Assembly (NCBI GenBank): GCA_014218215.1
Contig: CP043652.1
Span: 3,534,001-3,598,000, forward strand
Origin: Geodermatophilaceae bacterium NBWT11
GTDB taxonomy: Bacteria; Actinomycetota; Actinomycetes; Mycobacteriales; Geodermatophilaceae
DNA length: 64,000 bases
Reading direction: 5' to 3'
This document shows positions 756-19,146 of the stretch, one piece after another. Position 1 is the stretch's first letter. Each line of letters opens with the position of its first letter. The translations under genes and the position numbers were made by a program. The notes below the pieces were generated by a model. It ran no database searches and was not told where the DNA came from. It saw only the letters and a list, made by a program, of their open reading frames with translations.

Positions 756-1614
756 ATGTCCGTCGCCGTGGTCACCGACTCCACGGCGTACCTCCCCGAC
801 GACCTGACCGCCGCGTTCGGCATCGAGGTCGTCCCGCTCTACGTGGTGCTGACCGGGCGGTCCGGCCGTGAGGGCCTGGACGTCAGCCCGGCCGACGTGG
901 CCGGCACCCTGGCGGTGCGGGGGCAGCACGTCACCACCTCGCGGCCCACGCCGGGGGACTTTCGTCGCGGCCTACCGTCGCCGCCTGGACGCCGGTGCCG
1001 ACCGGGTGGTGTCGGTGCACCTGTCCAGCGAGCTGTCGGGCACCTGGGACGCCGCGCGGCTGGCCGCCGCCCAGGTCGGGACGCACGTGGTGAGCGTGGT
1101 CGACAGCCGGCAGGCCGCGATGGGCTCGGGCTTCGCGGTGCTCGCCGCGGCCCGCGCCGCGGCCGCCGGCCGCTCCGCGGAGGAGGTCGCCGCGGCCGCC
1201 CGCCGGACCGCCGCGGCCACCCGGACGCTCTTCGTCGTCGACACCCTGGAGCACCTGCGCCGCGGGGGCCGGATCGGCCCGGCCGCAGCCGCGCTGGGCA
1301 CCGCACTGGCCGTGAAGCCCGTGCTGCACGTCGAGGACGGTCGCATCGTCGCCCTGGAGAAGGTCCGCACGACGACGCGGGCGGTGGCCAAGATGGTCCA
1401 GCGCGTCGTCGACATCGCCGCCGGTGCGCCGGTCTCGGTGGCGGTGCACCACCTCGCCGCCCCGGAACGGGCCCGGGCGCTGGCCGAGGAGCTGCGGTCC
1501 CGGTTGCCCGCGCTGCGTGGCGAGGTCCATCTGGCCGAGCTCGGTGCCGCGATCGGTGCCCACGTGGGCCCCGGTGCCGTGGGTGTGGTCGTCGACCCGA
1601 CCGACCGGGACTGA
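756..1614 (+). CDS. DegV family fatty-acid-binding protein (one frameshift)
   Basis: DegV proteins bind a fatty acid; in Firmicutes relatives feed it to fatty acid kinase FakA. The N-terminus MSVAVVTDSTAYLPDD and the segment VTTSRPTPGDF are diagnostic of the family. The C-terminal domain has DTLEHLRRGGRIG, another strong family motif, and VKPVLHVEDGRI. One extra T at about 959-962 (GACTTTCGTC where GACTTCGTC is expected) shifts the frame between PGDF and VAAYRRRL. With that base removed the protein is about 285 residues, the usual size. The start is the ATG at 756 directly after a -10-like TAGCCT. Position next to a GpgP-like phosphatase matches mycobacterial order (Rv2417c). The single indel looks like a sequence error. 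Confidence 0.85.
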
Positions 1615-14986: not shown

Positions 14987-15988
14987 TCACCTGATGACGA
15001 CGGCGTGCTCCTGGGCGGGCACGAACTCCCCGATCACCGGGGCGCCGGGCACCTCACCGGCCAGCAGCAGCCCGCCGGAGGTCTGCGCGTCGGCGAGCAG
15101 CAGCGCGTCGTCCTCGGAGCAGGCGGTGAGGTCGGTGTGCGGGCGCACCCAGTCCAGGTTGCGGCGGGTGCCGCCGGAGACGTACCCGTCGGCGACGGAC
15201 TGCCGGGCGCCGGCCAGGTAGGGCACGGCGGCAGCGTCCACCACCGCGGTGACCCCGCTGGCCCGGGCCATCTTGTAGAGGTGGCCGAGCAGGCCGAACC
15301 CGGTGACGTCGGTGCCGGCCCGGATCCCGGCGGCGACCGCGGCGACCGACGCCTCGGCGTTCAGCCGGGACATCGAGTCGATGGCCTCCGGGGAGGGCTC
15401 CCCGGTGGCCTTCATCCGGTTGTTCAGGGTGCCCACGCCGAGGGCCTTGGTCAGCGAGATCGGGGTGCCGGCCACGGCGGCGTCGTTGCGGATCAGCCGT
15501 TCCAGGTCGACCAGGCCGGTGACCGCCATGCCGTAGGTGGGCTCGGGGGAGTCGATGGAGTGCCCGCCGCCGACGTGGCAGCCGGCGGCCTGGGCGACCT
15601 CCAGCCCGCCGCGGAGCACCTCGGCGGCCAGCTCGACGGGCAGCACGTCACGGGGCCAGCCCAGCAGGTTCACCGCGACCACCGGGGTGCCGCCCATGGC
15701 GTAGACGTCGCTCAGCGCGTTGGCCGCGGCGATCCTCCCGAAGGTGTACGCGTCGTCGACCACGGGGGTGAAGAAGTCGGTGGTGAGCACCAGGCCCTGC
15801 CCGCCGGCGATGCGCACCACCGCCGCGTCGTCGCCGTCGTCCAGACCGACCACGAGCTCGGCGGAGGGGTCGGTGGGTCCGGTGTGGGTGAGGCCGGCGA
15901 CGACGGCCTCCAGCTCACCGGGCGGGATCTTGCAGGCGCAGCCCCCGCCGTGGGCGAACTGGGTCAGCCGGATCGCGGTCGCCGTCAT
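14987..15988 (-). CDS. selD: Selenide, water dikinase (selenophosphate synthetase)
   Basis: SelD makes selenophosphate, the selenium donor for Sec-tRNA, from selenide and ATP. The catalytic loop is GGGCACKIPPGEL: the nucleophile is an ordinary cysteine followed by the essential lysine, so SelD itself is not a selenoprotein. Metal-binding aspartates lie in GLDDGDDAAV and TTDFFTPVVDD, and AANALSDVYAMGGTPVVAVNLLGWP is highly conserved. VTGFGLLGHLYKMARAS and DAQTSGGLLLAG complete the fold. Length is 333 residues. It is transcribed away from selC-selA-selB with only 27 bp between its start and the tRNA, so the two units share a short divergent control region. Confidence 0.97.
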   Translation of the reverse strand: MTATAIRLTQFAHGGGCACKIPPGELEAVVAGLTHTGPTDPSAELVVGLDDGDDAAVVRIAGGQGLVLTTDFFTPVVDDAYTFGRIAAANALSDVYAMGGTPVVAVNLLGWPRDVLPVELAAEVLRGGLEVAQAAGCHVGGGHSIDSPEPTYGMAVTGLVDLERLIRNDAAVAGTPISLTKALGVGTLNNRMKATGEPSPEAIDSMSRLNAEASVAAVAAGIRAGTDVTGFGLLGHLYKMARASGVTAVVDAAAVPYLAGARQSVADGYVSGGTRRNLDWVRPHTDLTACSEDDALLLADAQTSGGLLLAGEVPGAPVIGEFVPAQEHAVVIR

Positions 15989-16015: not shown

Positions 16016-16111
16016 GGAGGCGTCAGGGTGTCTGGTGACCCCCGCGGCCTCTAAAGCCGACGTGGCCCGGTACCCGGGTCAGGCGGGTTCGATTCCCGTC
16101 CGCCTCCGCCA
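16016..16111 (+). tRNA. selC: tRNA-Sec with anticodon CUA (reads UAG)
   Basis: A 96-base class II tRNA with encoded CCA. The acceptor arm GGAGGCGT/CCGCCTCC gives 7 pairs plus a T-C mismatch at the eighth; the T arm is GCGGG-TTCGATT-CCCGT, so the 8+5 layout of bacterial tRNA-Sec is present. The long variable arm GGCCCGG-TAC-CCGGGTC has 7 pairs. The anticodon loop (16049-16055) is CTCTAAA, placing CTA at 34-36, so it should decode UAG rather than UGA. The D arm pairs as GGG(T)GTC-TGGT-GACCCC with one bulged T, and the anticodon stem shows four canonical pairs plus a G-A. It lies between selD and selA. tRNA-Sec(CUA) with UAG-coded selenocysteine has been reported in Geodermatophilus and Blastococcus. 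Confidence 0.93.
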
Positions 16112-16129: not shown

Positions 16130-17410
16130 ATGACGACCGACCCCCGCCGCCTCGTGCCGCGCACCGACGCCCTGCTCGCCGAGCCCCGGGTGGCCGCCGC
16201 CGCCGACCGGCTCGGCCGCGACCTGGTCAAGGCCGTCGTCCAGGACGTGCAGCAGCGGGTGCGCACCGGTGACCTGCCGCCGGACGACGCCGCCGACGCG
16301 GTGCTGGCCGCCCTGCCCGGGACGGCGTCCAGCCTGCACCGGGTGCTCAACGCGACCGGGGTGCTGGTGCACACCAACCTCGGCCGGGCCCCGTGGTCGG
16401 CGGCCGCGGTCGAGGCGGTCGTCGCGGCCAGCGGCACCACCGACGTCGAGCTGGACCTCGGCACCGGCCGCCGCGGGCCGCGCGGGGAGGGCGCGATCGG
16501 TGCCCTGCTGGCCGCGGTGCCGGCCGCCGAGGCGGCGATCGTGGTCAACAACTGCGCCGCCGCCCTCGCCCTCGTCGCCACCGCGCTCGGCGGTGAGCTG
16601 GTCGTGGCCCGCGGTGAGCTGGTGGAGATCGGCGACGGGTTCCGCATCCCGGACCTGCTGGAGTCCACCGGCGCGCGCCTGCGCGAGGTGGGGACGACGA
16701 ACCGGGTCACCGTCGACGACTACACCGCGGCGGTCGGGCCGCAGACCGGTGCAGTGCTGAAGATCCACCCGTCGAACTTCGTCGTCCGCGGCTTCACCCG
16801 GTCGGTCGAGGTCGCCGAGCTGGCCGCCGCCGTCGACGTGCCGGTGGTCGCCGACGTCGGCTCGGGACTGCTGCGTCCGCACCCCGCGCTGCCCGACGAG
16901 CCCGACCTGCAGACCACCCTCGCCGACGGCGCGGACCTGGTCCTGTGCAGCGGGGACAAGCTGCTCGGCGGTCCGCAGGCCGGACTGGTCTTGGGCCGGG
17001 CCGACCTGGTCCAGCGGCTGCGCCGGCACCCGCTCTACCGGGCACTGCGGGTGGACAAGACGACGCTGGCCGCACTGGAGGCCACGCTGCGCGGCCCGCA
17101 GCCACCGGTGCAGCGGATGCTCGTCGTCGACGTGTCCGAGCTGCGCACCCGGGCCGAGGCGGTGGTCGCGGCCCTGAGCGGCGATGCGCTCGTGGTCGAG
17201 GCGGGCGCCCGCGTCGGCGGGGGAGGGGCGCCGGAGTTCGAGCTGCCCAGCGTCGCGGTCTCGCTGCCGGCGTCGTTCGCCGAGCCGCTGCGGCACGGCA
17301 GCCCGCCGGTCGTCGGCTACACCGCCGAGGGCCGCACCCTGCTCGACCTGCGCAGCCTCGACCCGGCCGACGACGAGGCCCTGGTCGCAGCGGTGCTCGC
17401 GTGCAGGTAG
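16130..17410 (+). CDS. selA: L-seryl-tRNA(Sec) selenium transferase
   Basis: SelA is a PLP enzyme that turns Ser-tRNA-Sec into Sec-tRNA-Sec with selenophosphate. Conserved stretches include [61 protein letters not shown] and the PLP-lysine segment [18 protein letters not shown]. Length is 426 residues, slightly short of E. coli SelA but normal for actinobacteria. The ATG at 16130 follows GGGAGAG, 18 bp after selC. The coding region ends at TAG (17408-17410), the very codon selC should read; read-through would add only 17 residues before a TGA. The first ten bases of selB overlap this gene, so they are coupled. Confidence 0.96.
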
Positions 17411-19146
17411 TCGCCACCGCCGGGCACGTCGACCACGGCAAGTCGACGCTGGTCCGGGCGCTGACCGGCATGGAGCCCGACCGGTGGGAGGAGGAGCGTC
17501 GCCGTGGGCTGACCATCGACCTCGGGTTCGCCTGGACGACGCTGGACTCCGGCCGCACGGTGGCCGTGGTCGACGTCCCCGGCCACGAGAGGTTCGTCGG
17601 GAACATGCTCGCCGGGGTCGGCTCGGTGCCCGCCGCGCTGGTCGTGGTCGCCGCCGACGACGGCTGGAGCGCGCAGACCGCCGAGCACGTCGCGGTCCTC
17701 GACGCCCTCGGCGTGCGGCACGGGCTGCTGGTGGTCACCAAGGCCGACCTGGGCGACCCCGCGCCGGTGCTCGCCGACGCACGTGCCCGGCTGGCCGAGA
17801 CCTCGCTCGGGGAGGTGCCCGGCGTCGCGGTCAGCGCCCGCACCGGGGACGGCGTCCCGGCCGTCGCCGCGGCCCTGGAGCAGCTGCTCGCCGGGCTGCC
17901 CGCGCCGGACACCACCGCGCCGGTCCGGCTCTGGGTCGACCGGGCGTTCAGCATCCGCGGCGCCGGCACCGTCGTCACCGGCACGCTGGCCGCCGGCACG
18001 GTGCGCACCGGCGACCGGCTGGTGCTCGGTGGGCGGGACGTCGCCGTGCGGGGTCTGCACTCCCTGGGCGAGCCGGTCGAGGAGGCGAGCGCGACCGCCC
18101 GGGTGGCACTGAACCTGCGCGGGGTCGCCGTGGAGGACCTGTCCCGGGGCGACGCACTGCTCACCCCGGCGGCGTTCCGCGAGACCGACGAGCTCGACGT
18201 GACCCTGGTGCACCCGGTCGAGGACCGGCTGCCCGCCCAGCTGGTGGTGCACGTCGGCTCGGCCACCGTGGCCGCCCGGGTCCGGCCGCTGGACGACGCT
18301 GCGCTGCGGCTGCGGCTGGTGCACCCCCTGCCGTTGCGGGTCGGTGACCGGCTGATCCTGCGTGACCCCGGTGCCCGCCGGGTGCACGGCGCGGACGTCC
18401 GGGACGTCGACCCGCCCGCGCTCCGCCGCCGGGGGGCCGCCGCCGCCCGGGCCGGCGACCTCGCGGCCTCGGACACCGCGGAGGCCGGCGCGCTCGCCGA
18501 TCTCACCCGCCGACGGGTGGTGGTGCGCGCCGAGTTCGAGGCGATGGGCTGGCCGGTGCCCGAGGGTGCGACGACCGTCGGCCGCTGGCTGCTCGCACCC
18601 GGCCTCGCCGACGAGCTGGCCGCCCGGGTGCCCGCCGTCGTCGCCCGGTACCGCCAGCTGCGCCCGTTGGAGCCCGGCCCGCCGACCGCGGTGCTGCGCA
18701 GCGCACTGGACCTGCCCGACGCCGAGCTGGTGGCCGGGCTGGTGCGGGCCCCGCTGACCCTGCGCGACGGCCGGGTGGTGGCCGCGGACTCCGGTCTGCC
18801 CGAGCCGGTGCAGCGAGCGGTCACGGGGATCCTCGCCCGGCTGGCCGCCGAACCCTTCGCGGCTCCGGACACCGAGGCGCTCGCTGCCGCCGGGCTCGGT
18901 GCGCGCGAGCTGGCCGCGGCCGTGCGCGACGGGCAGCTGGTCCGGATCGCCGACGGCGTCTACCTGGCGCCGGGCGTCGAGCAGCGGGCCCGGACGGCGC
19001 TGGCTGCCGTGCCCCAGCCCTTCACCCTCAGCCAGGCGAAGCAGGCGTGGGGCACCAGCCGCCGGGTCGCCGTCCCGCTGGCCGAGTGGCTGGATGCCCG
19101 CGGGGTCACCGTGCGCCTCGGCGACGCGACCCGGCGGCTGCGCTGA
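17401..19146 (+). CDS. selB: Selenocysteine-specific elongation factor
   Basis: SelB is the GTPase that brings Sec-tRNA-Sec to the ribosome and recognises the SECIS hairpin in the mRNA. G1 is [11 protein letters not shown], the switch I region [14 protein letters not shown]3 [12 protein letters not shown] and G4 TKADLGD. Domains 2-3 ([14 protein letters not shown]) follow, then C-terminal winged helices with GVYLAPG and [25 protein letters not shown]. The GTG at 17401 ([16 protein letters not shown]) overlaps selA by ten bases. Length is 581 residues, near E. coli SelB. In this organism SelB should act at UAG codons followed by a SECIS; no such selenoprotein gene was recognised in the window. 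Confidence 0.96.

Follow-up and report, generated by a model that had tools for sequence, protein, structure and literature searches.

A selenocysteine tRNA with a CUA anticodon and its probable use at UAG codons in Geodermatophilaceae bacterium NBWT11 and its family

In the genome of Geodermatophilaceae bacterium NBWT11 we analysed one stretch of 64,000 nucleotides, here called the window, and positions 16016..16111 of its forward strand almost certainly hold selC, the gene of a selenocysteine (Sec) tRNA that would insert Sec at a UAG codon followed by a SECIS hairpin in the strain's own formate dehydrogenase (FDH), by context-dependent recoding and not by reassignment of the codon. The phenomenon is already known in the family, as the earlier note on this DNA had said: tRNA-Sec(CUA) and UAG-coded selenoproteins are described in three Geodermatophilaceae by genome analysis, with Mukai 2016 cited as the source (PMC5330540, Santesmasses 2017). 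More widely, some species are described as recoding UAG, UAA and ten sense codons to Sec (PMC10778597). What we add is the extent of the trait over 112 genomes, the genera that carry UCA, the single clade of CUA bearers, a test of the SECIS hairpin, and a genome (G059) that may use two Sec codons. The use of UAG for Sec was reportedly confirmed by labelling in the 2016 work of Mukai.

ARAGORN, run on the window, places a tRNA exactly at 16016-16111 (+) with anticodon cta, and the Rfam tRNA-Sec model matches 16016-16107 over its whole span (1-91/91) with 66.5 bits (E 2.3e-11), above the gathering score of 47 bits; the tRNA scan and covariance-model search that the earlier note had proposed for this region thus both recover the gene. 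The anticodon loop reads CTCTAAA and gives CUA, as the note had stated, and the gene ends in an encoded CCA with a G directly before it (G73). The standard UCA anticodon of bacterial tRNA-Sec is absent, and CUA in its place is the defining trait of the UAG variant of this tRNA. The minimum-energy fold (-53 kcal/mol, z -3.1) stacks 13 acceptor/T pairs, drawn as 7+6 and not as the 8+5 of the note, and its variable arm has 8 bp instead of the 7 proposed; the Rfam class, the long variable arm and the encoded CCA of the proposed tRNA-Sec layout all stand.

The ARAGORN label for this tRNA, as for its CUA relatives, is tRNA-Pyl, an error that automated annotation may carry. The label, which owes itself to the CTA anticodon, is what speaks for a tRNA-Pyl, or for a general amber suppressor, at this position, and a CUA tRNA reading UAG is indeed what the gene shares with the pyrrolysine system. 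We consider this reading highly improbable, however, given the fit to the tRNA-Sec model and the long variable arm, where tRNA-Pyl is described with one of three bases (PMC7609411) and the window's tRNA does not have that shape. The gene is moreover tied to sel genes, among which it sits, and to a SECIS; the UAG of FDH stands at the position of the in-frame UGA of E. coli fdhF; and a free suppressor would read through UAG, the codon that ends 8 of the window's 44 genes in a rough call.

The neighbourhood of the tRNA-Sec gene is that of a Sec operon, with selC lying between selD on the opposite strand and selA-selB. selD (14987-15988, -), divergent from selC, encodes selenophosphate synthase in a frame without in-frame stop (NCBIfam TIGR00476, 379 bits); selA (16130-17410, +) encodes Sec synthase (TIGR00474, 409 bits; PF03841, 317 bits); and selB (about 17407-19146, +, within an ORF of 16945-19146) encodes the Sec-specific elongation factor (TIGR00475, 291 bits), overlaps the end of selA and has a start codon that is not fixed. 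All three score above the curated NCBIfam cut-offs, which bears out the claim that selA, selB and selD stand beside the tRNA, and SelB retains its C-terminal winged-helix domain (SelB-wing_3, PF09107, 53 bits). From the known pathway, we infer that in this strain the tRNA would be charged with serine, that SelA would convert the serine to Sec using selenophosphate from SelD, and that SelB would deliver the Sec-tRNA to UAG codons directly followed by a SECIS hairpin. SelA, SelB, SelD, the tRNA shape and a SECIS with GU at 23-24 are shared with the canonical selABCD/fdhF system of E. coli, whereas the codon differs, being UAG instead of UGA.

The genome of the strain, one contig of 4.59 Mb, contains three molybdopterin oxidoreductase genes in a PF00384 search; the match to one is split in two, and of the three this gene alone has an in-frame stop, a TAG. 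It is a formate dehydrogenase, matching NF041513 with 1912 bits when the TAG is read as Cys. The gene lies outside the window, at C1:2536842-2540126, and has a single in-frame TAG at 2537400 (L003:1705), being otherwise open across 1094 codons. This UAG (context IENQARI-U-HSATVPGL) aligns with the in-frame UGA of E. coli fdhF (codon 140; CCARV-U-HGPSVAGL). The Sec residue of FDH is therefore spelled TAG and not TGA, in agreement with the earlier prediction that UAG would be the Sec codon, and FDH fits the expected pattern of a known Sec protein with an in-frame TAG and then a SECIS hairpin. The note had also asked which genes use the codon. FDH probably does, with Sec inserted at this position; the other families searched gave none, as the UGSC family (PF24696) has no match in any of nine genomes of the window's genus, and the six AhpC-TSA matches and the AhpD-like match of the strain are without in-frame stop. 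The four families searched (PF00384, UGSC, AhpC-TSA and AhpD-like) thus yield a single selenoprotein in this genome, FDH. Compared with the UAG system reported for Geodermatophilaceae, the CUA anticodon, the UAG in the Sec position of FDH (in this genome) and of UGSC (in relatives within the family) and the SECIS behind it are shared; the missing UGSC match in the genus and the AhpC-TSA matches without a stop are the differences.

A Sec codon UAG should compete with release factor RF1 and not with RF2. The RF1 gene, prfA, scored above the cut-off in all five genomes searched (the strain's own, G059, G043, G071 and G073), each with a second, prfB-like match. The rough gene call of the window counts 35 TGA, 8 TAG and 1 TAA stops. 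Because RF1 is kept and TAG ends 8 of 44 genes, UAG still terminates, and its use for Sec would be context-dependent recoding rather than reassignment. In rough calls on other loci, TAG is the stop of 19.5% of 395 genes at loci from CUA genomes, 30% of 23 at the family's own UCA loci and 36% of 130 at UCA outgroup loci. Since most of what these loci contain is the same set of sel genes, the percentages give no conclusion on TAG avoidance.

Surveying 112 genomes from 12 genera of the family (g1-g12), we observed a CUA tRNA-Sec in 101 genomes of nine genera, UCA alone in seven genomes (g6, g7 and g8) and no tRNA-Sec in four drafts of 72-82% completeness (G072, G068, G097, G098), where the search gave tRNA-Ser as its best match. 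The 111 loci read contain tRNA-Sec in 110, with 102 CUA copies from 101 genomes and 8 UCA copies; the latter are those of the seven genomes and a second copy in G059. A second CUA tRNA in G037 is identical to the tRNA of the window's genus and was taken as contamination. At 95 of the 101 CUA loci selA was found adjoining the tRNA, some of the stretches being shortened, and this recurrence of CUA in 101 genomes, with selA beside it, excludes a sequencing error in the anticodon of selC.

FDH was matched at E 1e-40 in 101 of the 112 genomes; at that threshold none of the nine g6-g8 genomes had a match, nor did G035 and G094. Outside G079, all listed matches that extend over the Sec residue contain a single TAG, and this holds for 98 of the 101 genomes, across nine genera, again as predicted for the Sec codon; G034 and G096 have FDH fragments only, with the Sec residue outside them. 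The TAG-SECIS stretch is missing from both FDH copies of G079, a member of the window's genus; their 3' breakpoint is identical, with a shift of frame at that point, and this is either a real loss or an assembly collapse at a strong hairpin.

For the hairpin we took 33 FDH loci (30 from the family survey, that of G059 and the two of G079), of which 31 have the TAG, both G079 loci being the ones without. In these 31 the hairpin begins 11 bases 3' of the TAG, its loop is GGTCT, and U17 and the GU at 23-24 match E. coli fdhF, all without exception. In 15 distinct sequences taken together, standard pairs fill 103 of the 105 stem cells; shifting the 3' partner by 1-3 bases lowers this to 30-65. Pair 18-30 occurs as GT, CG, GC and TA and is standard in all 13 sequences that are distinct over the hairpin among the 31 (shuffle mean 6.2, p 5e-5, in a shuffle that ignores the mutual relatedness of the sequences); both of its bases occupy synonymous codon positions. 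The FDH SECIS therefore covaries and keeps the geometry of E. coli. The earlier note had left open how SelB and the SECIS have adapted to UAG: with this geometry, and with the winged-helix domain of SelB retained, no special adaptation is seen in either.

The broken FDH copies of G079, from the same genus as the strain, could be taken to mean that selC is a relic and the TAG of FDH the stop of a pseudogene. A relic would hardly have kept a single TAG in 98 genomes of nine genera, a hairpin behind it that covaries at synonymous sites, and, in the strain itself, a gene otherwise open over its whole length, and we give this explanation very little weight against that of a functional tRNA-Sec(CUA).

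UGSC proteins point to the same use of UAG among the strain's relatives. Matches were found in 54 of the 112 genomes; by manual count, a single TAG is present in 72 of the 95 matches listed, the other 23 are free of stops, and TGA occurs in none. Of the 30 loci fetched, 18 have TAG where UGSC has its U, loci without a stop at U having been removed by a filter, and these 18 all have GU at 23-24 of the hairpin but C at 17. Some genomes (G054, G055, G091 and G106 among them) have four UGSC matches each, some with TAG and some without a stop, the latter presumably with Cys.

The anticodon arm reads CGGCCTCTAAAGCCG in the CUA copies and CGGTCTTCAAAACCG in the seven native UCA copies, a difference of two anticodon changes and of U-A to C-G in the loop-closing pair. 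The C-G pair may predate the CUA anticodon, because it is already present in the UCA tRNA-Sec of G688 (L407), a genome from another family of the order. Among other families of the order, tRNA-Sec was found in 25 of 39 selA stretches, all UCA; a second search of the remaining 14 genomes gave a UCA tRNA-Sec in 12, including G688 and G694, and tRNA-Ser only in G518 and G648. In a SelA tree made by a quick method from 61 rows, a subset spanning the genera, the 18 CUA rows, from all nine genera, form one clade (SH-aLRT 100). G688 and G694 adjoin this clade (support 96), g7 and g8 fall outside it, and the SelA search gave none for g6; the named outgroup of the tree is not one side of any branch, with three rows misplaced. 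Since neither G688 nor G694 is a member of this family, the selA gene may itself have been transferred. On this tree a single anticodon change would suffice, and most simply UCA would have become CUA once, in an ancestor shared by nine of the family's twelve genera. The change needs two steps; that it went by way of UUA, which could read both UAA and UAG, is a guess.

Candidates for CUA tRNA-Sec elsewhere were set aside. G610, from another family, has a CUA tRNA (L426, G610:C194) beside its own UCA one, on a contig 73-87% identical to loci of the window's family over 2.36 kb, for which contamination of the draft is likely. The best of seven matches in a plasmid search for the tRNA region, from Embleya, has UCA. 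A scan of viral contigs for class II CUA tRNAs gave at least 120 stretches, by a pattern that cannot separate Sec tRNAs from other CUA tRNAs.

G059 (5.2 Mb, 100% complete, 1% contamination) has TAG in both FDH and a UGSC protein, one SelA match, and a CUA tRNA-Sec adjoining its only full SelB. Its second tRNA-Sec, with UCA, lies at 1169-1263 (-) of contig C17 (69 kb; L068) and has the top Rfam score of the family search, 81.8 bits. Separated from it by 315 bases is an AhpD-like gene (1579-2157, +; PF02627; TIGR01926, 113 bits) with one in-frame TGA at 1870, whose CMD/AhpD-like product replaces CxxC by CFYU. A prokaryotic selenoprotein list of 2026 includes AhpD-like and CMD-like proteins with CxxU (PMC13188914). 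We hypothesize, with somewhat more confidence than doubt, that G059 spells Sec with two stop codons: its native tRNA-Sec(CUA) would serve the UAG-coded FDH and UGSC protein, and a tRNA-Sec(UCA) from a distant phylum the UGA-coded AhpD-like gene that came with it, both presumably relying on the single SelA and SelB.

The nearest match of the AhpD-like protein in the family is 40% identical, and the other AhpD-like matches of the family at E 1e-12 have no in-frame stop. In the phylum (396 genomes, at most eight candidates scored in each), a threshold of E 1e-20 gives 12 matches from 10 genomes, each with one TGA and the same motif. A species collection gave at least 580 confirmed relatives, and TGA stands at the aligned codon in all of the best 80 of these. 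The six nearest among these 80, in drafts of Deltaproteobacteria, Myxococcales, Obscuribacter and kin, Melainabacteria and Gemmataceae, are 51-56% identical and all have TGA. That the TGA of G059 is a plain stop is unlikely in view of these counts, although the scan pattern, built from 13 TGA-bearing sequences, favours their subfamily, and some Cys homologues score similarly (that of G077, 86 bits, lies above several of the 12 TGA matches). What counts for a Sec reading of the codon is that the six nearest relatives all have TGA and lie far above the Cys homologues.

Other observations bear on the origin of the pair. All 130 plasmid records found with the AhpD-like protein are less than 60% identical, and the stretches fetched around the best 80 loci (of at least 580) contain no tRNA-Sec. 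At one of the 12 loci of the phylum, L232 (G222), a UCA tRNA-Sec lies about 950 bases away, like the pair in G059, and a travelling pair of tRNA-Sec(UCA) and AhpD-like gene is possible. The weakest link of the two-codon reading is the candidate SECIS: the 7-bp hairpin after the TGA carries GTT in its loop at 21-23, displaced by two bases from the normal position, and a clear hairpin follows the TGA in three of the eight nearest relatives, being weak or absent in the others.

Within the contig itself, 20001-40000 matches two genomes of G059's genus in long pieces (e.g. G054, 3.2 kb at 85%; G042, 3.7 kb at 80%) and other genomes in shorter pieces only; 18376-18947 matches the window's genome at 80%. 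Apart from the tRNA, 1-18 kb had no match in the other loci compared, and its translations, judged by eye, include transposase-like and toxin-antitoxin-like frames. The first 7.5 kb have a GC content of 0.61-0.68, lower than the 0.76-0.79 measured in parts of three further contigs of G059, which befits foreign DNA. The main doubt is that C17 is a chimeric contig with an assembly join inside 1-18 kb. Should G059 indeed use both codons, it would be a case of a horizontally restored codon, with two Sec tRNAs of different anticodon in one cell; a SelA and a SelB could then serve two anticodons per cell, and the choice of Sec codon could travel by horizontal transfer. Among the titles and opening abstract lines of the open literature we found no report of one genome with both a UAG- and a UGA-reading tRNA-Sec, and the account of genomes with two tRNA-Sec genes in PMC5330540 makes, in the part concerned, no mention of different anticodons.

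Gene finders that stop at UAG cut the FDH and UGSC genes, and because they do so, and ARAGORN labels the tRNA as one for pyrrolysine, an entire family of bacteria can have selenoproteins overlooked. It is also a clean example, provided by nature, of a switch in Sec codon that has close relatives on either side.
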